NCBI GenBank assembly: GCA_001595385.3
Contig: LVEI03000001.1
Location: 1,579,501-1,643,500 of the forward strand
Direction of reading: 5' to 3'
DNA: 64,000 nucleotides
Source: Deltaproteobacteria bacterium GWC2_55_46
Lineage (GTDB): Bacteria; Desulfobacterota; GWC2-55-46
The notes beneath the pieces were generated by a model. It was not told the DNA's origin. It made no database searches and saw only the letters and a program-made list of their open reading frames with translations. Below are positions 1,211 to 48,023 of the stretch, one piece after another. Within the stretch, counting starts at the first letter, position 1, and each line of letters starts with the position of its first letter. A program made the translations under genes and the position numbers.

Positions 1211-3850
1211 GTGGGTAGACCATCACAGACGATCGACATTGTTTTACAGAACAACCTGTGCATAGGCTGCGGCTTATGCGCAGCAGCCTGCCCACATAAT
1301 ACAATCAAAATGGGCTGGCACTCAAAAAGAACCTGGCAGCCGGCTCTTGACAAATCGAAATGTACAAAATGCGGACTTTGCTACGAAGTGTGCCCTCATT
1401 CGCCTGAATGCATAATAGAATATTCGCAAGCCGCGGCAGAAAGCGGGCGCAAATTCGGGCTGCCGCATGGTGCCGACTATTTCATAAGCTACGATATGGA
1501 TGAAAGCAAAAGGATTCTAAGCGCTTCCGGCGGAGCCCTTAGCGTCCTCCTGGGACATCTGCTTGAATCGGGCGTCATCGACGGTGTAGTCGCTTCCGTT
1601 CCGCTGTTCACCGAAATCGGGAAACCGCATTACCAGGTGCAGATCTTTCATTCAAAACAGGAGCTGGAAACCGGAAGAAGTTCTCATTATCACCCCCTGA
1701 ACTATGATGCGGCGATACGGGAGCTTTCCGGGATGAAAGGAAGTTTCGCCATACTCGGCGTGCCATGCATTGTGAGGGGGCTCAAGCGCCTGCCCCAGAA
1801 GATCAGGCAAAAAATCAGGTTTACCATTGCTTTGTGCTGCAGCCATAATGTCACGGGAGCGTTCATCGATTGCCTCGCAGCAAAAGAGGGTATCGGAAAG
1901 AATGAACCCTTTCAGGCCAACTTAAGAGAAAAAAAGGGGATTCCCGACGCAAACAATTTCAACACCTACTTTTGCCTCGAGCAAAGGGAAATTCGCAGAA
2001 ACCGGTTTGAAAGCGCGTTTACCGATATGTGGCGCAATTATTTTTTCGCGCAGGAATGCTGCCTTTATTGCCCTGATTTTTACGGGGTTGATGCCGATTT
2101 GTCAGTCAAGGACGCATGGGGGCGATTGAGCAAAGATCCGCTGGGCATATCGCTCCTGGTCATTCGCAATAAAGAACTCAGCCGCCACCTGACGCAGCTC
2201 AGAGAAACAGGGCGGCTGTATCTCGAAGAATGCAGGGCTGACGAGGTCTTTGATTCGCAAAAGGAGACCCCGGTCTTTAAGCATGAGGGCGTGCATCACC
2301 GTCTGGCGTGGAAAAAAATTATAAGGGCCGATATGAGGAGGAAGAACATTCCTCATATCGCAAAAGACTGGAGTTCCAGGGAGTCTGTCGAGTATTGGCG
2401 TTTCAGGGCTTTTATTTGGCTATCCAACTTTTTTTATTTCAATTTTGGGCGCGTGCCAGTCAAGAGATTGCTTGACATGGTGCGGCCCCGGAAGAAACCC
2501 AACACGATAAATTCGTCCCGTCCAGCAGGGCCTGCTTCATCAGGCGCTCGGTCAGATGCATGGCAGGGTGCTGAAAACCCAAATGTGCTGATAGCTGGCG
2601 GCTACGGGTATGGGAATGTGGGCGACGAGGCCCAGCTCGCCGCTAACATACAGCACTGGAAAAAGGCCTTTCCGTCTTGCCGGATAACGGTCCTGACGCC
2701 ATACCCTGAATACACCAGGGCGACTCATAGAAAGGACATAATAATTGAGCTTGCGCCGAGGGTGTCATTATTCGGCGCGGGCGATGTCCCTTACTTCGGT
2801 TCTGAGGAGATTTTCAAGAAGAAGTTTTTTCCTTTGGCGCTGCGCTTCCTTTTAAATGCGTATTTGATAAGGGCCGGCCTGCCCGCAGTCGGGCTCACCG
2901 CTCGACAGGCCCGGATGTTGAACGTGTTAAGGGGCTCTGATGTCCTGTTTCTCTCCGGCGGAGGTTATTTAACCGGCATGACGCTCAGCAGGCTCTGGGA
3001 AAATATGCTGCTGCTAAGGCTCGCTCGCATTTTTGGGGTCCCTGCCTTCTTGTCCGGCCAGACTATAGGCGTATTTCAAAATCGACTAAACAGGTTTCTT
3101 GCAAAATGGGGCCTGAAGACAGCGGAGCTCATCTATCTGCGCGACCCTGTCAGCTCATCGAAGGCCCTGGCCGAAATAGGTATTACCGCTGAGAGGACAA
3201 AAAGCACTTTTGATGACGCTCTCTTTTATTCGCCGGAATCGCAGGAGAGAATCGATGATTTTCTCAAGGGGCACGGACTCTATGAAAAACCGTACCTGGC
3301 AGTAAATGTCCATTATTGGGGGCAGGCCCCTGAAGAGTCCAGGGTCATCATAAAACAGACGGCCAGTGCGCTCGACAGAATACAATCAGTGCTCGGCCTG
3401 CGGGCAGTGTTTGTGGCGATGCACGCCTCTGACGAGGCGGCTGTCGATGAGACATTGCGCCTGATGCAAAATCCGGGCATTTTTCCGAAGTGCGGCTATG
3501 ACCTGGACCTGACTATCGGCCTCATTCAAAATGCTACGCTTTGTCTTACGATGAAGCATCATCCTATCATTTTTGCAATGGCGGCCGGGGTGCCTACGGT
3601 ATCGATGTGCTTCGATGGTTATTATGAACACAAGAACAGAGGCGCTCAGGACATATTCGGGCAGGGCAAATATGTGATCGCTGGCTGCGAGGAGCTATCT
3701 ATCAAAATAGAGGAAAGCGTCACTGAGGTGTATCGCAGGAGAACTGAGCTATCCGCGCAGATTAGGTCAAAAGTGGAAGAGCTAAGGCCGCTGGCAGGCG
3801 ACGTCATCTATAAGTATAAGTCCGCTCTGCACAGCAAAAGGATACCGTGA
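1211..3850 (+). CDS. Ferredoxin/FrhB-like domain fused to polysaccharide pyruvyl transferase
   Basis: 879 residues starting at GTG. Two 4Fe-4S motifs are seen at C17/C20/C23/C27 and C51/C54/C57/C61. They are followed by FrhB N- and C-terminal domains (coenzyme F420 hydrogenase beta-subunit family, about residues 85-400), including a C-x2-C-P-D-F segment near 282. After a Ser/Pro/Ala-rich linker (about 425-455), a polysaccharide pyruvyl transferase domain (WcaK/AmsJ/CsaB family) begins with a G-G-Y-G-Y-G-N-V-G-D-E loop near 460 and runs to the end. The second half should add a pyruvate ketal to a sugar from phosphoenolpyruvate. The first half is a flavin/FeS oxidoreductase whose role in glycan loci is not established. 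The two families often occur as adjacent genes; here they are one chain. Confidence 0.85.
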   Translation: MGRPSQTIDIVLQNNLCIGCGLCAAACPHNTIKMGWHSKRTWQPALDKSKCTKCGLCYEVCPHSPECIIEYSQAAAESGRKFGLPHGADYFISYDMDESKRILSASGGALSVLLGHLLESGVIDGVVASVPLFTEIGKPHYQVQIFHSKQELETGRSSHYHPLNYDAAIRELSGMKGSFAILGVPCIVRGLKRLPQKIRQKIRFTIALCCSHNVTGAFIDCLAAKEGIGKNEPFQANLREKKGIPDANNFNTYFCLEQREIRRNRFESAFTDMWRNYFFAQECCLYCPDFYGVDADLSVKDAWGRLSKDPLGISLLVIRNKELSRHLTQLRETGRLYLEECRADEVFDSQKETPVFKHEGVHHRLAWKKIIRADMRRKNIPHIAKDWSSRESVEYWRFRAFIWLSNFFYFNFGRVPVKRLLDMVRPRKKPNTINSSRPAGPASSGARSDAWQGAENPNVLIAGGYGYGNVGDEAQLAANIQHWKKAFPSCRITVLTPYPEYTRATHRKDIIIELAPRVSLFGAGDVPYFGSEEIFKKKFFPLALRFLLNAYLIRAGLPAVGLTARQARMLNVLRGSDVLFLSGGGYLTGMTLSRLWENMLLLRLARIFGVPAFLSGQTIGVFQNRLNRFLAKWGLKTAELIYLRDPVSSSKALAEIGITAERTKSTFDDALFYSPESQERIDDFLKGHGLYEKPYLAVNVHYWGQAPEESRVIIKQTASALDRIQSVLGLRAVFVAMHASDEAAVDETLRLMQNPGIFPKCGYDLDLTIGLIQNATLCLTMKHHPIIFAMAAGVPTVSMCFDGYYEHKNRGAQDIFGQGKYVIAGCEELSIKIEESVTEVYRRRTELSAQIRSKVEELRPLAGDVIYKYKSALHSKRIP

Positions 3851-5148
3851 ATATTTACGACGAAATAAAAAGGAAAATAACGGGTAAGAGAGCCACTCAA
3901 TACAGAAAAAGCTGCCTTATCATACCTTGCGGCTGGTTTGGATTTGATTACAAAGAAATACATAAAAGGGCTTCTGAGAACAATTGTCATTTTATAACTT
4001 ACGATTTCAAGGAAGTCGATAGAAGCGAAAAGATCTATTTGGATTATTGTAAATATAAAGAAATAACCTATAGGGGAGTCAATTTATACGAATCATCTAT
4101 TTACAACATTTGCAATGATTTGGAATTAGCGCCAAAATTTTTAGATTTTTCAGATCAAGTTCAAAAAAAAGTTTTAGAAAAATGGTATGAAATAGCAGCA
4201 AGGCATGTTGATTATGCAACACGGCTTTTTGACGAAAACAAAATTGAATTGGTCATTATTCCTCAAGGTTATGTTTTGGAAGCAGCAGTTGTGAGACAAA
4301 TTGCCGTTAATAGGGGCGTTTCTGTTTTGGCGATAGAGAATAGCCTAAGTAAGGACAAGCTCCTTTGGGATAATGTGTCAGGCATTACGGTCAATGCTAA
4401 TCTCGGCAAGAATTATTTTTGGAAATTCAAAAGCAGTATTGATGAGAGGACGGCAATAAAATATAAGGAAGACTTTTTGAGAAATATCAAGCTGTTGAAG
4501 GTAAGCGAGCACTCGTCGCCAAAAACCCAATATCCAAGAAACGGCGGCAGGAAAACCATATTATTCCTTTCCCAGGTTTACTTGGATTCATCGATTATTT
4601 TCGGGATATACGATTTCCCCGATACCGTAAAAATAATTGAGATTCTTTGTAGATTTTGCGAGCGCATGAATTACGAATTGATTGTAAAACTTCATCCAAA
4701 GGAAATTGAGGGCAACAGTATATTGAACAGGCCTTATGACAAAATTACATGGAGGAAAATCAAATCCAACAAGTATCTTGCAGACAAAATAGAGCAGCAA
4801 ACATATGTGCATGTTGATTTCGAGAACAGTTACGACACCTACAGCTTAATAAGCAATGCTGACGTTTGCGTAACTGTGAATTCAATGGCCGGTATCGAAG
4901 CTTTATTGCTTGGGAAAAACGTCATTCTTTGCGGACAAAGCAGCTATGGCGGGCTTGGTTTCACATTTGAAGCCTATAATCAGGAATTTTTAGATTTTTT
5001 TTTAGAGTTGGTAACTACTAAAAATAAAACGATGATTAATGCAGACGCAGACAAATTCTTTTATATCTATTTAGAGAAATATTGTATCGATAAGACTAAT
5101 GGCGCGTTAATAAGCTTGATTGAAAAACAACAATTAGCAAGAAGATAA
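3847..5148 (+). CDS. KpsC/KpsS-like capsular polysaccharide glycosyltransferase
   Basis: 433 residues from GTG 3847, whose last two bases lie in the preceding gene's TGA. The best-recognised part is near residues 337-365: A-D-V-C-V-T-V-N-S, then G-I-E-A-L-L-L-G-K-N-V-I. This matches the C-terminal nucleotide-binding region of the Capsule_synth family (KpsC/KpsS/LipB beta-Kdo-type transferases). The N-terminal half is not recognised. Base composition is clearly AT-richer than in the genes before it, which suggests recent acquisition. The donor sugar cannot be read from the sequence. Any GT-B enzyme acting on a polysaccharide linker or chain would fit. Confidence 0.55.
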   Translation: MNIYDEIKRKITGKRATQYRKSCLIIPCGWFGFDYKEIHKRASENNCHFITYDFKEVDRSEKIYLDYCKYKEITYRGVNLYESSIYNICNDLELAPKFLDFSDQVQKKVLEKWYEIAARHVDYATRLFDENKIELVIIPQGYVLEAAVVRQIAVNRGVSVLAIENSLSKDKLLWDNVSGITVNANLGKNYFWKFKSSIDERTAIKYKEDFLRNIKLLKVSEHSSPKTQYPRNGGRKTILFLSQVYLDSSIIFGIYDFPDTVKIIEILCRFCERMNYELIVKLHPKEIEGNSILNRPYDKITWRKIKSNKYLADKIEQQTYVHVDFENSYDTYSLISNADVCVTVNSMAGIEALLLGKNVILCGQSSYGGLGFTFEAYNQEFLDFFLELVTTKNKTMINADADKFFYIYLEKYCIDKTNGALISLIEKQQLARR

Positions 5149-5150
5149 AA

Positions 5151-6110
5151 ATGCAAAAACCGTTAGTAAGTATAATAATTCCTTCATTTAATTCTGAAAA
5201 ATACATCGCACTTGCTATAGAATCTGTTCTCAAACAGACATATAGAAATTGCGAGATAATTGTAATCGATGACGGATCATCTGATTCTTCATTCAAAATA
5301 GCTTCTGAATATGCAAGGAGAGGACAGATAAAAATTCTACATCATAGTAATTTCGAAAATAAAGGTGTGAGCAAGACCCGGCATTTAGGAATAATGGAAG
5401 CAACTGGAGAATATATTGCATTTTTGGACTCGGATGATTTTTTTGAAGAGGACAAAATTGAAAAACAAATTGTTGCACTGGAGTCAAACAGGAATTATAT
5501 TCTCTGCCACACAGCCATCAAGCCAATTTCCGAAACTGCAGCGCAGGCGGATTTTGTTGGTCATTTTAATATTTCGGAAGATGTTTTGGCGTACAACTAT
5601 CAAGAATGCGAAGATTTCTTATTATCTAATCACGTCTGTAATTCCTCGGTGATGGTTCGCTCTTCGATCCTAAAACAAATAAATTTCTGTTCGCGACAGA
5701 TTTTTCAATATGAAGATTGGGTATTATGGGTGCTTCTTTCTGAGCACGGTAAATTTCTTTATTTACCGGACGAATTGCTTAATTATCGTTTTCATGAAAA
5801 TTCGGCAACATATAAGGTGGTTTCGAATAGGTTAATTAACCACTACTCATCATTGGAATTTTGTCTGATGTTGATTGCAAAAACAAATAACAAAGATATA
5901 GCGTTAAAGGCATTACAGTTATCAAAAAAACAGATTTTAGAAATATGTAAAATCTATGGGAATGGAAAGACGTGCCAATTTGATTCGTTTTTTGAAAATA
6001 CAGAGGAAAAAGAGCGTCAGTTGAACGAACTTCTCTGTTCGTACAGCTGGAAGATAACAGCGCCGCTGCGTGGCATTTTAGATGTTATCACGAAAAGAGG
6101 ACGCGATTAG
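5151..6110 (+). CDS. Family 2 glycosyltransferase
   Basis: 319 residues. The GT-A fold opens with V-S-I-I-I-P-S-F-N at residues 6-14, D40-D41-G-S-S-D for nucleotide binding, and the metal-binding D93-S-D95-D96. The C-terminus carries the short motif S-W-K-I-T-A-P-L-R, which recurs in the next gene. It starts 2 bases after the previous stop and shares its AT-rich composition, so the two probably arrived together. It should transfer one sugar from a nucleotide donor to the growing repeat unit on the cytoplasmic face. Donor and acceptor are unknown. Confidence 0.85.
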   Translation: MQKPLVSIIIPSFNSEKYIALAIESVLKQTYRNCEIIVIDDGSSDSSFKIASEYARRGQIKILHHSNFENKGVSKTRHLGIMEATGEYIAFLDSDDFFEEDKIEKQIVALESNRNYILCHTAIKPISETAAQADFVGHFNISEDVLAYNYQECEDFLLSNHVCNSSVMVRSSILKQINFCSRQIFQYEDWVLWVLLSEHGKFLYLPDELLNYRFHENSATYKVVSNRLINHYSSLEFCLMLIAKTNNKDIALKALQLSKKQILEICKIYGNGKTCQFDSFFENTEEKERQLNELLCSYSWKITAPLRGILDVITKRGRD

Positions 6111-6113
6111 CTT

Positions 6114-7367
6114 ATGGACTACGCCGTTTGCACGATAGTCTCGAAGAACCACCTGCCCTTTGCCAGGGTCTTCGCCGAGTCTTATAAGAAGCATAATAAG
6201 GGCGAGGTGTTCCTGTTATTGGTAGATAGGGTGGACGGCTGCTTCGACCCCGCAAAAGAGCCGTTCAAGATGTACACCATAGAGGACTTCAGGGACCGCA
6301 TCCCTGAATTCGAGAGCTTCTGCTTCAGGTACAGCATCCTTGAGCTTAACTGCGCGATGAAGCCGTACTTCATCGAGTCTCTTTTCAATGAGCATGGCTT
6401 TAAAAAGCTCCTTTACTTCGATTCTGACATTTTAGTAACCGGCAGTGTTGACGAGCTGATAGGCCTGCTGGACAGCCACCCGCTTATAATCACGCCTCAT
6501 TTTACGGCACCGCTTAAAGACGGCTTCCTGCCAAACGAGGTGGGCGTGCTCATGGCCGGGCAGTACAACGCCGGTTTTTTCGGCATTACCAATACGCCTG
6601 CCGCCAGGGGCTTTATAGAGTGGTGGAAGGACAGGCTGTATACCGATTGCATTCAAGCTGTTGAAAAGGGGCTGTGTTCAGACCAGAAGTGGCTCGATTT
6701 CGCGACCAGCTATTTAGACGACGTGCTCATACTTAAGGACCCCGGCTGCAACATCGCCTACTGGAACCTTTTCCGCAGGGAGCTAACGGAAGAGGACGGC
6801 AGGTACTACGTGAACGGCCGCCCGGCAGTATTTTTTCACCTCAGTGGCTTCGACCCGGACAACGCCGAAGTAATATCCCGCCACCAGAACAGGGTTACAT
6901 TGGAAAAACATCCGCAGTACAGGGGAATATTCGAGGAATATGGAAAGCTGGTGAAGTCCAAGGGATGGGCCGAGGCACACGGCTGGCCTTACGCGTTCGG
7001 GCGGTTCGACAACGGCGCTGACATCCCGCCGTTTGCAAGAAGGCTTTTTCATGAGATGAGAGATGACGCCCGGAGGTTCGGCAATCCTTTTGAAACCGCG
7101 CAAGAAGGGTCGTTTTACAATTGGCTGAACGAACCTATGAACCAGGCCCGGCCAGATGTAACGCGCTGGTCTCTTGCAACGCAGGTACGGCAGACTGCGC
7201 CGGGCGTTCAAGAACTTATGGACCTGTTATACCAAAAAGAAGAGGTGATCAGCCAAAAAGAAGAGGTGATCAGCCAAAAAGAAGCAGAAATAAGATTGAT
7301 CCTGAATTCCCTGAGCTGGAAGATAACGGCGCCGTTGAGAAAGACATTGGGATTATTGAAAAGATAG
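6114..7367 (+). CDS. GT-A type glycosyltransferase with heptad-repeat tail
   Basis: 417 residues. A C-T-I-V-S-K-N-H-L start and the metal-binding D103-S-D105 in L-Y-F-D-S-D-I mark a GT-A fold distantly like GT8. The same domain forms the N-terminus of the protein at 10495-13098. Near the C-terminus, two exact copies of Q-K-E-E-V-I-S and a third partial copy form a coiled-coil heptad, encoded by a perfect 21-base tandem repeat. The chain ends in S-W-K-I-T-A-P-L-R, as in the preceding glycosyltransferase. GC content returns to the chromosomal level here. Donor unknown. Confidence 0.75.
   Translation: MDYAVCTIVSKNHLPFARVFAESYKKHNKGEVFLLLVDRVDGCFDPAKEPFKMYTIEDFRDRIPEFESFCFRYSILELNCAMKPYFIESLFNEHGFKKLLYFDSDILVTGSVDELIGLLDSHPLIITPHFTAPLKDGFLPNEVGVLMAGQYNAGFFGITNTPAARGFIEWWKDRLYTDCIQAVEKGLCSDQKWLDFATSYLDDVLILKDPGCNIAYWNLFRRELTEEDGRYYVNGRPAVFFHLSGFDPDNAEVISRHQNRVTLEKHPQYRGIFEEYGKLVKSKGWAEAHGWPYAFGRFDNGADIPPFARRLFHEMRDDARRFGNPFETAQEGSFYNWLNEPMNQARPDVTRWSLATQVRQTAPGVQELMDLLYQKEEVISQKEEVISQKEAEIRLILNSLSWKITAPLRKTLGLLKR
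7233..7284 (+). repeat. 21-base in-frame tandem repeat encoding a coiled-coil heptad
   Basis: Two identical 21-base units (7233-7253 and 7254-7274) are followed by the first 10 bases of a third. Each encodes Q-K-E-E-V-I-S, one heptad of a predicted coiled coil. The unit length lets copies be gained or lost without a frameshift. Confidence 0.9.
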
Positions 7368-7480
7368 ATAACAGAATTTTCGAAATGGAACACAAGACAG
7401 ACTGCAAGAAACGCGTATCTACCGCTAAAGAGGGACCACATCATGAACGACATAAGGCAGTTCCAGAGAGGAAAAATAGA

Positions 7481-8860
7481 ATGACAGCGAATAAGCTTGC
7501 TTCAATAATCATTTTAAATTTGAATGGTGAAGAAATTTTATCAGAATGCCTGGATCGACTGCTTGCGCAAACGTATCAAAATTTTGAGATTCTGATTGTG
7601 GATAATGGTTCCAGTGATGGCAGTGTTGAACTGATTAAAAACAGATATGGCGGATATTCTAATATTATTTTGATAGAAAACGATGAGAATGTTGGCGTAC
7701 CAGAGGGGAGGAATGTAGGGTTAAGAGAGGCAAAAGGCGATATAATCGTTTTTCTCGACAATGATGGGTTTGTTGATAAGGAGTGGCTTGAAAAAGGAAT
7801 AGAGACTTTATACTCGGCCGATGATATCGGTTCAGTTGCATCGCTTGTTTTTTTCGCGGACAAAAAAGACATCCTTAATGGCGCGGGCGGCACAATTAAC
7901 CTCCAAGGTTATGGTGGCGATTTGTGTTCCGATGAGCCGTATAAGTATGCTGATATCCCTAATGAAGTCCTGTATCCAATGGGGTGCGGCATGTTCCTGA
8001 AACGAGAGGTCCTTAAATATACGGGCTTTTTCGACAGCATACTTTTTTATTACTACGAAGATCTTGATTTTGGCATAAGCGTCTGGAGATCGGGATACAG
8101 AATTGTTGTTGCAAAGGAAGCAATAGTTTATCACAAGCTCAGTTACAGCAGCGGCTTCCTCAATTCGAAAAAATTCTATTTGTATCATAGAAATAGGATA
8201 AGAACTGTTTTAAAGCATTTCCCTTTCAACGAAATACTGAGATGGCTTTTCAGAGAATTCAAAATCGAAATCAACCGCAGATTTCCAACTTTTGCAAAGG
8301 CATGGCTATGGAATTTAAGACATCTGAGCTCTCTCTTAAAATTTAGAAGAAGTTTGCCGCCAAATTATGATTTTTTTAATCTTATGGATAAAACTATCGA
8401 TCCATTTTCGCTTGCAAAGCCACAAAATTTACTTTTCCGGCCTGATCCTGAATCGGCATCACTGGAATTTACGATTGGCAAAGGGGATGAAAAATTTCTT
8501 AATTACGGGTGGTATCATTTGGAGAAAGATTTGAGTAAGAATAAGGTTTTTAGATGGAGCTATAAAGCAAGCTCCGTTATTCTCAGAATACCAGAATCGA
8601 TTAAGGCATTGGGTCTGGATATCAGATTTTGTTCTTTAAAAACAAATTCAATAAGGGTCGATATCATAGATTATGATTCTGCGGAAACGATTCAATCTTG
8701 CAAGATAGAAAAAGAAAGCGACGAATGGAAAAAGGTTACGGTACCAACTGCTTTGAAAGCGGGCACCTATGAACTGCAATTCCGCCCTGAATTTACATAT
8801 AAAGAAAGAAGTACAAGACAATTAGGTTTTGCACTTTCCAAAATCGAAGGTGAGGTATAG
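7481..8860 (+). CDS. Family 2 glycosyltransferase (rhamnosyltransferase-like) with C-terminal beta-sandwich domain
   Basis: 459 residues from ATG 7481, chosen because an AGAGAGG ribosome site lies about 10 bases upstream and the GT2 fold begins immediately (A-S-I-I-I-L-N-L-N). The frame is open further upstream but overlaps the previous gene. Motifs are V-D-N-G-S-S-D-G and the metal site L-D-N-D-G. The segment with Y-Y-E-D-L-D-F-G-I-S resembles WbbL-type rhamnosyltransferases. From about residue 310 a separate domain with N-Y-G-W-Y and alternating strands looks like a carbohydrate-binding beta-sandwich. The gene is AT-rich compared with the flanks. It would add a sugar, plausibly rhamnose given the dTDP-rhamnose genes downstream. 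Confidence 0.8.
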   Translation: MTANKLASIIILNLNGEEILSECLDRLLAQTYQNFEILIVDNGSSDGSVELIKNRYGGYSNIILIENDENVGVPEGRNVGLREAKGDIIVFLDNDGFVDKEWLEKGIETLYSADDIGSVASLVFFADKKDILNGAGGTINLQGYGGDLCSDEPYKYADIPNEVLYPMGCGMFLKREVLKYTGFFDSILFYYYEDLDFGISVWRSGYRIVVAKEAIVYHKLSYSSGFLNSKKFYLYHRNRIRTVLKHFPFNEILRWLFREFKIEINRRFPTFAKAWLWNLRHLSSLLKFRRSLPPNYDFFNLMDKTIDPFSLAKPQNLLFRPDPESASLEFTIGKGDEKFLNYGWYHLEKDLSKNKVFRWSYKASSVILRIPESIKALGLDIRFCSLKTNSIRVDIIDYDSAETIQSCKIEKESDEWKKVTVPTALKAGTYELQFRPEFTYKERSTRQLGFALSKIEGEV

Positions 8861-8861
8861 C

Positions 8862-10139
8862 ATGAGATGCGCACATATTTTCCCTCTTTTTGGGAAGGAA
8901 TTGATAAATGGATCAGAATACTATGAATTAATGCTTTCGTCCCATTTGACCAAATTAGGAATGGAAGTTGATATTTATGCAACCACATCGAATTCAATTC
9001 AGATCAAGTCTGCTTTTTGTATCGCATGGAAAGGACATTATAGAAGCGGTCTTGAAAAAATTGATAACCTCAATGTCTATAGGTATCCAACTTGGACCTG
9101 TCCTGAAAAATTGGGAGCAGTATTTTCCAAATTAATTGTAGATAGACTTAATAAGGAAGGGGTTCTCTCAACAAAGAAATCTCACAAGTTATATTATGAA
9201 AAAGCTCTGGAGAGACCCAAAATATATGATTTGCTGGCAAGGGTGGGCCGCGGCCCTTATTCAAGGGATTTACTGAAAGCACTCAAGGCAAATATTAACA
9301 AATACGATATTGTTTTAACTGGGTTTCTTCCATTTTCATTGTCACATCAGGTAATCACAATTGCAAAAAAAGCGCGTAAAAAGGTCGTTCTTCTGCCCTT
9401 ATTCCATCCAGATGATTTGTATCATCATTGGAATTATCTTTATCGATATTTCGAAAAATCTGATGCCGTATTGACTTTAACTGATCATTCTCAAAAAATC
9501 ATTCGCGACCTTTTCTCTGAAAAAGTAAAAAATGTCAAAACAGTAGGCGCTGGCGTTGATTTGAAATCCTTTTTGGATAAAGGAATTTCCGGCAGCAGAT
9601 TCAGAGCGAAATACGGACTTGAATCAAAAAAAATAGTTTTGTTTGTAGGCCGCAAAGAGAAATTCAAGGGATATGAAACGGCAATACAGGCTATAAAAAA
9701 TATAAAAAATCCCGATATTAAATTGGTAATGATAGGTTCTGATGCGGACAAAAAACCAATTAATGATGATTTTGTTTTATATTTGAACAAGCTGGATAGA
9801 AATGAACTTATTGATGGTTACGATAGCTGTGACTTGTTTATACTTCCTTCAGAGCACGAAAGTTTCGGGATGGTTTTTTTAGAGGCTTGGGCAAGAAAAA
9901 AGCCTGTGATTGGAAATGGAAATTGTGGACCGGTTACTTCGCTGATTGATGATGGTGTAAATGGTCTGTTATGCAAGAATGTCGATGAATTCAGTCAGGC
10001 CATTGTGAAGCTCTTATTAAACAGAGATACAGCAAAAAAATTTGGGGAGAATGGCTTTGAAAAGGTGAATATGGAATATACCTGGGATGTGGTGGCCCGC
10101 AAAACCGCCGATATCTACAATGGATTATTGAGCGAATAA
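8862..10139 (+). CDS. Family 4 glycosyltransferase (GT-B)
   Basis: 425 residues from ATG 8862, immediately after the previous stop; an in-frame TTG at 8829 would only add overlap. The C-terminal GT-B domain carries V-L-F-V-G-R-K-E-K-F-K-G and, near residue 331, E-H-E-S-F-G-M-V-F-L-E-A, the EX7E element that binds the donor phosphate and sugar. It retains anomeric configuration by family rule; mannose or glucose donors are common but cannot be assigned. It shares the AT-rich composition of the gene before it and stops just before the recombination scar. Confidence 0.85.
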   Translation: MRCAHIFPLFGKELINGSEYYELMLSSHLTKLGMEVDIYATTSNSIQIKSAFCIAWKGHYRSGLEKIDNLNVYRYPTWTCPEKLGAVFSKLIVDRLNKEGVLSTKKSHKLYYEKALERPKIYDLLARVGRGPYSRDLLKALKANINKYDIVLTGFLPFSLSHQVITIAKKARKKVVLLPLFHPDDLYHHWNYLYRYFEKSDAVLTLTDHSQKIIRDLFSEKVKNVKTVGAGVDLKSFLDKGISGSRFRAKYGLESKKIVLFVGRKEKFKGYETAIQAIKNIKNPDIKLVMIGSDADKKPINDDFVLYLNKLDRNELIDGYDSCDLFILPSEHESFGMVFLEAWARKKPVIGNGNCGPVTSLIDDGVNGLLCKNVDEFSQAIVKLLLNRDTAKKFGENGFEKVNMEYTWDVVARKTADIYNGLLSE

Positions 10140-10145
10140 ATCCTT

Positions 10146-10300
10146 ATGAGCGCGACCGTTTCAATCAGACTGAGATTATTCCAGCTTGTCAGGGAATCCG
10201 CCGCTATGGCGGCCTCTGTCCTGAAGCCCGTTTTTCAAAGGCACACAAGGATAATGGGGCTGCTTCTCAAAATAAACGAGCGTGTCCTCGCCCTGCCGAC
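10146..10300 (+). repeat. 155-base direct duplication, copy 1
   Basis: This segment aligns without gaps to 11800-11954, offset 1654 bases. It includes a perfect 43-base match (10189-10231 against 11843-11885) and only scattered differences elsewhere. It encodes the same linker peptide in both places. Confidence 0.9.
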
Positions 10301-10517
10301 TATTTGCCTCTTCTCAAGCACCAAACCCGCGAATTCGGACGCGCCTGTATCTGAAAGATATCTCTACCTTGAAAAGGGGGTATCCTGTAGGCCGTGCGGT
10401 GCAATGGAACAATGTCCTAAAAATCAAAAAAATTATTGCGAGAATTTTGTTGAGCCTGAATCGGTCTCAGAGGAAATAATGAGGATGCTGTCAAATGTCT
10501 ATGGGACAAACATCTAA
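10146..10517 (+). pseudogene. Chimeric remnant: duplicated linker fused to a family 9 glycosyltransferase tail
   Basis: A 123-codon open frame made of two unrelated pieces. Codons 1-52 duplicate the linker of the next gene, including R-E-S-A-A-M-A-A-S-V-L-K-P and I-N-E-R-V-L-A-L-P. The remaining 70 or so codons look like the end of a GT9 (heptosyltransferase-type) protein: C-R-P-C, then C-P-K-N, then C-E-N, then P-E-S-V-S-E-E-I. The GT9 catalytic domains are absent, so no enzyme activity is expected. The join falls at about 10300, where the nucleotide duplication also ends. The simplest reading is a leftover of recombination at the shared linker. It could still be translated. Confidence 0.7.
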
Positions 10518-13098
10518 TAAAACGGTCTTCTGCACCATCGCGAGCGCGAACTATCTATCACGGGTACAGGTGCTCGAAAACTCGTTGAAAAGCCATAGCC
10601 CCGACTATGACTTGAAGATACTCCTGTGTGAAAACCCGGAGGTTTGTGAAGAACTCGCCAGGCGAACAGGCCGTAAATTCTATTCCCCCGCTGATATCGG
10701 GTGTACTGATTGGCTGCATATGGCCTTCTATTACAATCTAATCGAGTACAATACCGCGCTTAAGCCGTATTTTATCGAAACACTGATAAAAGAAGGGTAC
10801 GCTTCTGTTTTTTATTTCGACCCTGATATAGAAATATTTTCTTCATTAGATGAAATGACAGGGCTCATCCCAAAAAATGATATCGTTTTGACGCCGCACG
10901 TCTGTAAGCCCCTCCGGGATGATCTCAAATATCCTGCTATGGAATATCTTATGCAAGCTGGGCAATTCAACCTCGGGTTTGCTGGTTTTTCCAACAGCAA
11001 TGAATCCCTTGAGCTCTTGAGATGGTGGCAGAGTGTCTGCCATGAAAAGTGCGTTTTTGATGTTAATCGCGGGTATTTCGTGGACCAGTCCTGGGCTGGC
11101 ATCTTCCCTTCTTTTGTTGAAAAGACATATATATTACGCGACCCTGCGTATAATGTCGCCTACTGGAATATCTTCCAGAGAGATCTGAAATTTTCTGATG
11201 GGAGATGGATGGTCGATGGAAAGGAGCTAAAGTTTTTCCATTTCAGCGGTCTGTCTAAAGATGATCTGACCAAGGTGTCGATATACCAAAATCGCGTGAC
11301 CGCGCCCATGGGAAGCGCCCTCCATTCTCTTTTGACGCAGTATTTTGAAAAGATAAAGGCCCAGGGATGGGCGGAGTTTAATGATCTCGCGTACTCATTT
11401 TCGAAATACTCGAACGGGGAGCCCATTACCGAGGCTGATAGAAAAAAGTTTCTGCTCTTGAGCGCTGAGGAGAGAAAAGAATTTGGTGACCCTTTTGAAA
11501 AATTTTCAGAGGTCAAAGAAGATCAAAAAAATTGCGATGGTTTTGATATGTATATCGAGTCATTGAGAACGGAAGGCTTTCTGGTCGCGAACCTGAAGGC
11601 TATCCGCGCTTTAAAAAGAAGATATTCCGAGAAGATGAAAATCACCAACCCGGTTTCAAGCACGAATGTTTTCAGCCTGTATCTCGAAGTCTTGAAAAAA
11701 GAAGGCTTTATTATAACCAATTTAAAAATGTTGCGATCTCTTTCGAGGGCTGTAAAACAAAAGGTCGGTTTTAAAAAAATTACTGATTGCAAATACTATA
11801 TGAGAGCGGCCCTTTCAATCAAACTTAAGTTCTCCCATTTTATCAGGGAATCCGCCGCTATGGCGGCCTCTGTCCTGAAGCCCGTACTCCAAAGGCACAC
11901 AAGGATAATGGGTCTCCTTCTCAGGATAAACGAGCGTGTCCTCGCCCTGCCAACCGACGCGTGCGGCAATGATGATTTTGAAAAGAGTACGAAGGATTTC
12001 AGTGGGGAACCAGGCGTCAATCTGATCGGCTACATAAACGCGGAAAGTGGGGTTGGCGAAGGCGCGCGGGCGAATATAAGGTCGTTTGAGCGCGCTGGCG
12101 TGCCTTTCGCCTTGAACAACCTGAAATGCCAGTCAAGGCAGGGGGACGCGACCTATACGAATTTTACGGAGACTAATCCTTACCGGGTCAATCTGGCGCA
12201 TGTCAATGCCGATATGGTGCCGTCACTCATTCAGGCCAAGGGCCTCGATTACCTGAGGGGCAAGTACAATATAGGCTTCTGGTATTGGGAGCTCTCCAAA
12301 TTCCCTGAGATATGGTTTGACAGGTTCAGGTTCTTCAACGAGATATGGGTTGCCACCGGTTTCTGCCAGGAATCGATTTCGGCTGTAGCCCCGGTGCCGG
12401 TTACGAAGATACCGCCTTCGGTAGTGGTCGAGAATATAAAAGAGATGACCAGGGGCGATTTCGGCCTTAAGGAAGGCGAGTTCGTCTTCCTTTTCGCCTT
12501 CGACATCTTCAGTTTTTTGGAACGGAAAAACCCCTTTGCCCTGATACGGGCGTTCAGGGACGCCTTCCCTGCGGAGAAGGACGTAAGGCTGGTACTCAAG
12601 TGCTCCAACATGGAGCGCGCCCCTGACGCAAGGGAAAGGCTTCTTAAAGAGACAGAGGGGCTCAACGTCAAATTCATCGACCGGTATCTGGATAAGGACG
12701 AGATAAACGCGCTCTTGAAGTTGAGCGATTGCTATGTCTCACTTCATCGTTCCGAAGGCTTCGGGCTGCCGCTTGCCGAGGCCATGTACCTCGGGAAGCC
12801 CGTAATAGCTACAGGGTACTCGGGCAATACCGATTTCATGAACGCAAACAACAGCTTTCCTGTAAAATACAGGCTTGTAGAAATAGAGAAGAGCATGGGC
12901 CCTTACAAAAAAGGCAATATATGGGCTGACCCGGACCATGCGCACGCCGTCGAATTGATGCGGCTTGTCTATAATGATAAAAAGCTCGCCGCGCAAATAG
13001 GAAAAAAGGCGTCGGAAGACATAAAGGCGCATTTAAGCCCGGAAGTCATCGGCAAGATGATATCCGAGAGGTTTGAAAAATTGCGGATATGGAATTAA
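10495..13098 (+). CDS. Bifunctional glycosyltransferase: GT-A domain, repeat linker, GT4 domain
   Basis: 867 residues. Residues 1-330 are a GT-A domain with the metal site D109-P-D111, homologous to the protein at 6114-7367. Residues 353-381 and 395-423 are two copies of a helical unit built on Y-I/L-E-x-L-x-x-E-G-F. The duplicated linker follows. From about residue 505 (V-N-L-I-G-Y-I, then G-V-G-E-G-A-R) a GT4 enzyme runs to the end, with H-R-S-E-G-F-G-L-P-L-A-E near 750. It probably adds two successive sugars. The ATG at 10495 overlaps the remnant upstream by 23 bases; ATG 10501 is an alternative start. Confidence 0.8.
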   Translation: MSMGQTSNKTVFCTIASANYLSRVQVLENSLKSHSPDYDLKILLCENPEVCEELARRTGRKFYSPADIGCTDWLHMAFYYNLIEYNTALKPYFIETLIKEGYASVFYFDPDIEIFSSLDEMTGLIPKNDIVLTPHVCKPLRDDLKYPAMEYLMQAGQFNLGFAGFSNSNESLELLRWWQSVCHEKCVFDVNRGYFVDQSWAGIFPSFVEKTYILRDPAYNVAYWNIFQRDLKFSDGRWMVDGKELKFFHFSGLSKDDLTKVSIYQNRVTAPMGSALHSLLTQYFEKIKAQGWAEFNDLAYSFSKYSNGEPITEADRKKFLLLSAEERKEFGDPFEKFSEVKEDQKNCDGFDMYIESLRTEGFLVANLKAIRALKRRYSEKMKITNPVSSTNVFSLYLEVLKKEGFIITNLKMLRSLSRAVKQKVGFKKITDCKYYMRAALSIKLKFSHFIRESAAMAASVLKPVLQRHTRIMGLLLRINERVLALPTDACGNDDFEKSTKDFSGEPGVNLIGYINAESGVGEGARANIRSFERAGVPFALNNLKCQSRQGDATYTNFTETNPYRVNLAHVNADMVPSLIQAKGLDYLRGKYNIGFWYWELSKFPEIWFDRFRFFNEIWVATGFCQESISAVAPVPVTKIPPSVVVENIKEMTRGDFGLKEGEFVFLFAFDIFSFLERKNPFALIRAFRDAFPAEKDVRLVLKCSNMERAPDARERLLKETEGLNVKFIDRYLDKDEINALLKLSDCYVSLHRSEGFGLPLAEAMYLGKPVIATGYSGNTDFMNANNSFPVKYRLVEIEKSMGPYKKGNIWADPDHAHAVELMRLVYNDKKLAAQIGKKASEDIKAHLSPEVIGKMISERFEKLRIWN
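11800..11954 (+). repeat. 155-base direct duplication, copy 2
   Basis: This is the partner of 10146-10300, lying inside the bifunctional glycosyltransferase gene between its two catalytic halves. Recombination between the copies would delete or duplicate about 1.65 kb, including most of the N-terminal glycosyltransferase domain. Confidence 0.9.
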
Positions 13099-46608: not shown

Positions 46609-46623
46609 TACGGTTTCAATCAG

Positions 46624-46653
46624 GGCCGGGCGGTTTTCCGCCCGGCCTTTTTT
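46624..46653 (+). terminator. Rho-independent terminator of the FeS/NrfD/cytochrome operon
   Basis: GGCCGGGCGG, loop TTTT, CCGCCCGGCC, then six T. Confidence 0.93.
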
Positions 46654-46745: not shown

Positions 46746-48023
46746 ATGTCTTTTGAGGCGCTGATTCCGGTCATAGAGAAATACAAATCAGACAAGGAAT
46801 CTGTCTACAATACCTGGTTTGTCGAAGGGCAGGAAAGGCTTTGCGCTTTCCGGGCCATTAAGACGGGGTTAAGGCAGGTGATCGAAGAGATAAAAAGCGG
46901 CACATTCGGGAACGATTTCAAAGGGTCATCTCTCGAAGTCGTATTGAATTCGATAACCGAGCAGAAGCAGGTCTTCAAAGGGGCTTCCCACGCCTTTTTC
47001 TGGAAGCCGAAGCTCCGTATCCCTGATATATACGAGAATGAGCAGAATAAAAGATTCTTTGGACAGTTCCTCGAAACCTGCCTGTGCGCCTGTAAAGAGG
47101 AACAACTCCTGTCGGAGATAATCAAGCTCTCTGAAAAGAAGATAAAAGGGCTCGGCCCAGCGGCTGCGAACATATTGTATTTTCTGCACCCGACTATCAT
47201 ACCGCCTTTCAATACCGCTATCCTTGGAGGTTATAATGCCCTTTTCAAGGAAAAGAAAAAACTCGGATCATGGCAGAGCTATCTTGAGATGAGGGAGGTA
47301 ATCTTTAAGGCTAACAACGAACTTAAGGCACACCTCTCAAAGGACCTTGGCGCTATCTCAGGGCTTCTGTTCGAGATTGGCGTAAACAGGGTCCTTATAG
47401 ACGGCAATTCGGAAGAGGTGCTTGAAAAAGAGACGGCCAGGGCAGCCTCGATCGTAAAAAAACGCCATGAAGAAGTTTTGCTCGACAAAAAAGAAGACGA
47501 TGCGCACACAAGGATGCAGTATCTTCTCGTTAAAGCAGGCAAGGCACTTGGTTATGACGTAGCGGTAGCGTCCAATGACCGGTCCAGGGAGTATAATGGA
47601 GAGAAGTTTTCGTTCCTTACTCTGCCTGCTTTGCCAAAGATGGAAATATCCGATGATGTCATGGAAGTAGTGAATTTCATCGATGTGCTATGGTTTAAAA
47701 AAGGGACGAACGACATCGAATGCGCCTTTGAGGTCGAAAAGACAACGTCTATCTATTCGGGGCTCTTAAGGCTTAAGGACCTGATATATTCGATATCAGA
47801 TAATAACGAATACCATGTGTTCGTGCTTATCCCTGATGAGAGGGAGCAGGAGATGCTGGCGCAATTGAAAAGGCCCGCTTTTTTCGATCTCAGGGAGAAA
47901 AATGTAAGCTATATCCTTTTTGGCGACCTCTGCTGCCATGCCGAAGCGATATGCAAGCTCGGGGATGATTATAGGATATTGAAGAAGATCTGCAGGGATT
48001 TGGCAGGGGCCAAGTGCAGTTGA
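46746..48023 (+). CDS. Orphan helix-hairpin-helix protein with nuclease-like C-terminus
   Basis: 425 residues, AT-richer than its neighbours. Near residue 131, [16 protein letters not shown] resembles the helix-hairpin-helix of DNA repair enzymes. The C-terminal third has I-D313-V-L-W-F, then A-F-E329-V-E331-K332-T-T-S-I-Y-S, a spacing compatible with a PD-(D/E)XK restriction-type fold; the K follows E331 rather than fitting the strict pattern. Similar proteins are described as type II restriction-like, but no methyltransferase lies nearby. It is flanked by a terminator and the Rieske gene, so it looks like an inserted single-gene islet. Function not proven. Confidence 0.6.

Follow-up and report, generated by a model that had tools for sequence, protein, structure and literature searches.

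Bacterial copper resistance has so far been described in terms of export, oxidation and binding. Among the genes named in this context is copL, from the copper cluster of plasmid pMOL30 of Cupriavidus metallidurans, which has its own start site with a putative shared CopR1 motif upstream and whose product is described as a Cys-rich cytosolic protein (PMC7563307). The same gene is listed elsewhere as 'type II enzyme restriction' (PMC12029693). The evidence for its expression is mixed: it is listed among the metal-upregulated cop genes (PMC11647585), it was not upregulated after acute copper (PMC7563307) and the CopL protein went undetected in a proteome of metal-stressed cells (PMC11647595). 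No biochemistry or genetics was found for any member of the CopL family. A second group of relevance is formed by proteins in which an EVE domain is joined to a PD-(D/E)XK nuclease, which have been proposed to act as type IV restriction enzymes (PMC7641849).

The CopL family and its distribution

The window analysed here is a stretch of 64,000 nucleotides from the genome of Deltaproteobacteria bacterium GWC2_55_46. ORF reading and homologue alignment delimited within it a CDS for a putative two-domain protein of 425 amino acids (46746–48023; this gene, its parts and the terminator in front of it all lie on the + strand). Judged by sequence similarity, the gene belongs to the CopL family, named from the pMOL30 cluster. 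The window protein shares 46% identity with pMOL30 CopL over 97% of the query, and the pMOL30 homologue sits at the position described for copL, divergent from copOF and adjoining copQH, in a direction that matches the published cluster.

Full-length relatives at 37–60% identity were found in the Bacteroidota, Pseudomonadota, Cyanobacteriota, Bacillota and Actinomycetota as well as in the window's own phylum. The initial annotation had called the gene an orphan, which is true within the window but not beyond it, where a wide family exists. Even genome samples of three phyla held full-length copies in 14/398, 15/395 and 3/299 genomes and the window's own phylum in 7/395, which corresponds to about 1–4% of the genomes sampled in the four phyla. 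One of the three copy-bearing genomes of the 3/299 sample (Clostridia) also has a short form of the gene. Plasmid records with the family gene number 179, of which 84 are predicted to be conjugative, and no copy was detected in phage and viral collections at the sensitivities used. It should also be noted that a Lactococcus plasmid copy in a copper operon region (locus L029, 6001–7218) has a broken frame, with a 157-aa ORF and no annotated gene.

No Pfam or NCBIfam model covering the family matched any of 47 members, and hits to Pfam VEGF_C and, among PDB profiles, to coronavirus spike were dismissed as due to chance. The PADLOC model REase_II matched 47/47 members; in the window protein this match (E = 7.7e-9) covers residues 236–390 only, in the C-terminal part.

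Domain architecture

A full-length model of the protein was built from ten aligned sequences and reached a mean pLDDT of 68, which is moderate. A Foldseek search with this model gave mostly helical-bundle noise, which was resolved using VIA alignment and a separate model of the N-terminal domain. On these models the protein very probably combines an HhH-GPD-like domain with a PD-(D/E)XK nuclease.

The C-terminal domain (residues 241–420; 47466–48005) is predicted to be a PD-(D/E)XK nuclease of the ExE type from the PADLOC match and the structure model. Modelled residues 241–425 follow the helix–strand order of a PD-(D/E)XK core, with a mixed sheet between helices. The top VIA rows for this part were the restriction nucleases Nt.BspD6I (Z 7.8), EcoT38I (7.1) and BsaWI (7.0), with further rows for a NucS-like repair endonuclease (6.8) and FokI (6.6). 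Structure prediction and the REase_II match thus agree with the nuclease core first suspected from the letters of the DNA. The motif D-x15-E-V-E-K on which that suspicion was based holds in part. The predicted metal ligand D313 (47682–47684) and both Glu residues of the predicted ExE active-site motif E329-V330-E331 (47730–47738; read from the DNA, E329 is at 47730–47732 and E331 at 47736–47738) are invariant, D313-x15-E329-x-E331 being kept in 47/47 homologues, but position 332 is Lys in 37 and His in ten of them. Since Lys is replaced by His in these ten, the form of the active site would be D...ExE and not a strict (D/E)xK.

Two other explanations come from the literature and the databases. 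The description 'Cys-rich' (PMC7563307) might suggest that CopL is a cytosolic metal-binding or regulatory protein with an inactive nuclease-like domain. C112 alone is nearly invariant (44/47), C403 is found in 35/47 and the other cysteines of the window protein are poorly conserved, and it is the nuclease residues that are invariant instead. The metal-binding identity was rejected on this poor conservation and is considered quite improbable. Product names in some plasmid records and the listing of copL in PMC12029693 point to an ordinary type II restriction enzyme whose methyltransferase has been lost. A solitary active enzyme of this kind would cut its own host, and one conserved family is found in distant hosts. 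Moreover, inspection by eye of the ORFs at 43–53 kb of the window revealed no methyltransferase gene, which agrees with the initial annotation, and none was recurrent among the neighbours listed. This explanation can be given hardly any weight.

The N-terminal domain (residues 1–216; 46746–47393) is predicted to adopt an HhH-GPD glycosylase-like fold from the structure model, VIA and Foldseek. All 50 of the 50 VIA rows listed for it were HhH-GPD DNA glycosylases, spanning residues 2–216, the best being MjOgg, an 8-oxoguanine glycosylase of the Ogg2 type (Z 7.7 over 163 residues); Z values below 8 are middling by VIA's own note, and it is the uniformity of the listed rows that persuades. Foldseek agreed with this fold, with weak E-values. 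None of the 47 members had an HhH-GPD Pfam match, and comparing sequence profiles with Ogg in hhalign gave no significant match (prob 1.3%). Three Clostridium species (L007–L009) have the domain by itself, as a 225-aa protein, and this stand-alone protein models better (pLDDT 81, pTM 0.82). C. folliculivorans carries both the short form and a full-length copy. In one of the Clostridium loci (L007, 6549–8678) the gene of the stand-alone domain is divergent from a gene encoding a HEAT-repeat (DNA alkylation repair-like) protein.

A family signature is located at residues 86–98 (47001–47039), with W86, K87, P88, K89 and R91–E97 invariant in 47 homologues. The helix-hairpin-helix lies at residues 133–143, or 131–148 (47136–47189) in a wider delimitation, in the homologue alignment, with G135, L136, G137 and P138 invariant among homologues; the DNA-binding type of hairpin noticed at the outset is therefore present, in a domain that matches HhH-GPD DNA glycosylases. 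Catalytic positions were assigned by motif alignment with Ogg2 proteins (IKGIxYKEGSHFLRN...AILDKHV). This alignment placed A139 (47160–47162; 46/47 members) where Ogg2 has its catalytic Lys and an invariant Asn, N156 (47211–47213; 47/47 members), where HhH-GPD glycosylases have their catalytic Asp. Asp-to-Asn mutants of HhH-GPD-type glycosylases lose base removal. With both catalytic residues replaced, the domain is likely to read DNA without excising bases; it is expected to bind DNA and probably to flip out or inspect a base without glycosylase catalysis.

In other genomes the same nuclease module (37–41% identity over about 150 residues) was found fused to an EVE domain, which is a reader domain for modified bases. 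No EVE match was obtained in the CopL family, the domain being found in these sister proteins, and when 200 genomes of the Mariprofundus phylum were searched with the EVE-nuclease, all the places listed were CopL copies known already. This sister architecture supports a design of base reader plus nuclease for CopL. It also speaks for a modification-dependent, type IV-like restriction, the EVE-PD-(D/E)XK proteins being proposed enzymes of that type (PMC7641849). In such a system the HhH-GPD-like domain would recognise a modified base in the invading DNA of phages or plasmids, which the nuclease would cut, with copper islands carrying the gene as protection of their mobile element. The plasmid location of the family, the REase_II match of every member and the replaced glycosylase residues, which suit a reader, are in line with this.

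Position and acquisition of the window gene

The gene is flanked by a multihaem cytochrome gene and by a Rieske/cytochrome b operon. The cytochrome gene ends in a strong intrinsic terminator (at 46622–46649; annotated as 46622–46653), which sits between it and the ORF, as the initial annotation had described. No Rfam families were matched around the window gene. Its GC content is 46.4% against 53–59% in seven neighbouring genes and its GC3 is 57% against 68–82%; the atypical composition reported before was confirmed, but the gene is only mildly AT-rich. A separate low-GC stretch (about 33–45%) at 3847–12000 carries glycosyltransferase and surface-polysaccharide genes and is unlike the remaining window.

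In five congeners the cytochrome and Rieske genes flank the same site without this gene, which excludes a stable synteny with the respiratory genes. Neighbouring genes are 62–85% identical within the genus, and the nearest homologue of the window gene, in another genus of the same family and at a different location, is 90% identical. A tree of the family placed copies from the window's phylum intermixed with copies from other phyla. The 90% identity across genera, the empty sites in congeners and the mixed tree indicate that the gene moved horizontally. It is a recent horizontal acquisition which arrived here as a single gene without other copper genes, and the foreign origin first suspected from composition is upheld. 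In one of the five congeners (L114, 3912–4757) a gene for a TerC-like membrane protein fills the cytochrome–Rieske gap at the same site, so this gap has taken in different single genes; no Rfam families were matched upstream of the TerC-like gene.

Arrival as a single gene, both here and at another place in G026, together with the patchy distribution of the family, could be read as the behaviour of a selfish or hitch-hiking nuclease gene that spreads itself and is merely kept in mobile metal islands. However, the preference for copper loci in different phyla and the overlap with copper operons described below call for a functional reason, and such a gene is considered unlikely.

Linkage to copper resistance

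The surroundings of 43 genome loci were compared with 38 control stretches, all from genomes carrying the gene. P1B-type ATPase, CusA and multicopper oxidase were used as copper markers, with the marker proteins taken from annotated plasmid loci. A copper marker was present within about 9 kb in 26/43 genome loci and in 3/38 control regions (Fisher p = 5.5e-7). One of the positive controls, L104, shares its contig with a family copy at a distance of about 20 kb, and without this control p = 1.1e-7. Seven of ten plasmid loci had a copper marker, or eight if DUF2933 is counted. The window copy and 17/43 of the sampled genome loci are without a copper marker nearby; inspection by eye showed no P1B-ATPase, CusA or oxidase gene near the window gene, and two P1B-type ATPases are located elsewhere in the same genome, more than 250 kb from it.

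Independently of these markers, Pfam families were tallied among the 143 proteins encoded nearest to the gene in other genomes. The tally was led by P-type ATPase (14), HMA (11) and heavy-metal-binding domains (11), with YHS, DUF3347, CopB and multicopper oxidase as further leading families, and no defence family matched more than one of these proteins among the matches listed. The family gene begins 6 bp downstream of CopA in Mariprofundus; it overlaps or abuts CopB in three other genomes and follows CusB or CopA by 14–29 bp in others. A search for CopY operators detected no box immediately preceding the Enterococcus and Listeria copies. The CopY box of Lactococcus precedes copY, and the copper genes downstream of it share the strand of copL. 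When the label 'copper' was placed on the tree at least nine changes were needed, so the linkage recurs in distant branches and is not the habit of one clade. A similar FAD-dependent oxidoreductase (FHGDFQG.ENW motif) was observed near the family gene in two distant genomes (L006, 2375–3697; L032, 7512–8696), one of them without the copper markers used.

The CopL family is thus almost certainly associated with copper islands, and it spreads by horizontal transfer as an accessory of islands and plasmids for copper and silver resistance. This linkage is not visible from the window, which is why it was missed in the initial annotation. A gene of defence islands, in line with the defence function considered there, is not supported, as metal-resistance families dominate the neighbours, no defence family recurs among the matches listed and no phage copy is known from the collections searched. 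The DNA repair function considered beside it may hold. Defence reader domains usually diverge fast, and the reader domain of CopL is highly conserved between phyla. This conservation, the copper neighbours found in place of repeated defence neighbours and the operon coupling with copper genes all argue against the type IV-like restriction outlined above, which is conceivable but doubtful.

Proposed function

The preferred reading is a base-reading nuclease tied to copper stress that acts most likely on damaged DNA, for which a probability of roughly 0.45 is suggested. The N-terminal domain would recognise an abnormal base or lesion arising under metal stress and the PD-(D/E)XK domain would cut the DNA near the recognised lesion, starting its repair. 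Base reading, cutting and the lesion as substrate are what we infer from the analysis. The role in metal stress is favoured by the copper linkage, the operon overlap and the lack of recurrent defence neighbours among the matches listed, while damage as the substrate fits a fold near that of oxidised-guanine enzymes. As E. coli is killed by copper also without oxygen radicals (PMC9040851), 8-oxoguanine is a less likely substrate. The damage-directed mechanism is weakened by the mixed expression data for copL and by the window copy lying apart from copper genes.

A bolder form of this reading is a DNA-damage nuclease dedicated to copper resistance, whose glycosylase domain, stripped of its catalytic residues, locates a base lesion or an adduct caused by copper and whose fused nuclease cuts at that spot. 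Mobile copper islands of at least five phyla would then carry their own DNA-repair arm beside efflux pumps and oxidases. This is tentative and on balance rather unlikely.

The presence of the family in copper-resistance clusters across many phyla suggests that metal resistance may have a DNA-handling arm which has been overlooked. With a conserved reader-plus-nuclease encoded in copper operons from Cyanobacteria to Bacillota, a DNA-directed function would join those already described, and CopL would reopen, in a testable way, the question of whether copper damages DNA inside cells. A predicted architecture and a function-linked context can now be given to a gene so far known as copL or 'type II restriction endonuclease'.

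Comparison with known systems

The nuclease domains of Nt.BspD6I, EcoT38I, FokI and NucS share their predicted fold with the C-terminal domain of the window protein, but they have other partner domains and only 6–13% identity to it. For the N-terminal domain the nearest predicted fold is that of Ogg2 (MjOgg, TmOgg) and MutY, with the helix-hairpin-helix in the same place. The window family differs from these in having A139 and N156 for the catalytic Lys and Asp, in showing no significant sequence match to them and in being fused to a nuclease.

EVE-PD-(D/E)XK proteins (PADLOC REase_II, PDLC03534) have the same nuclease module and likewise consist of one reader and one nuclease. Their reader is EVE, of the PUA clan, whereas that of CopL would be a glycosylase-like domain, and inspection by eye showed no copper gene near the four copies seen. 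The closest described system is CopL itself (Rmet_6120) in the cop1 cluster of pMOL30 from C. metallidurans CH34. Although it lies between copQ and copOF in a cluster of 21 copper genes, whereas the window gene is without copper genes nearby, CopL has the same two predicted domains and the same invariant residues as the window protein.
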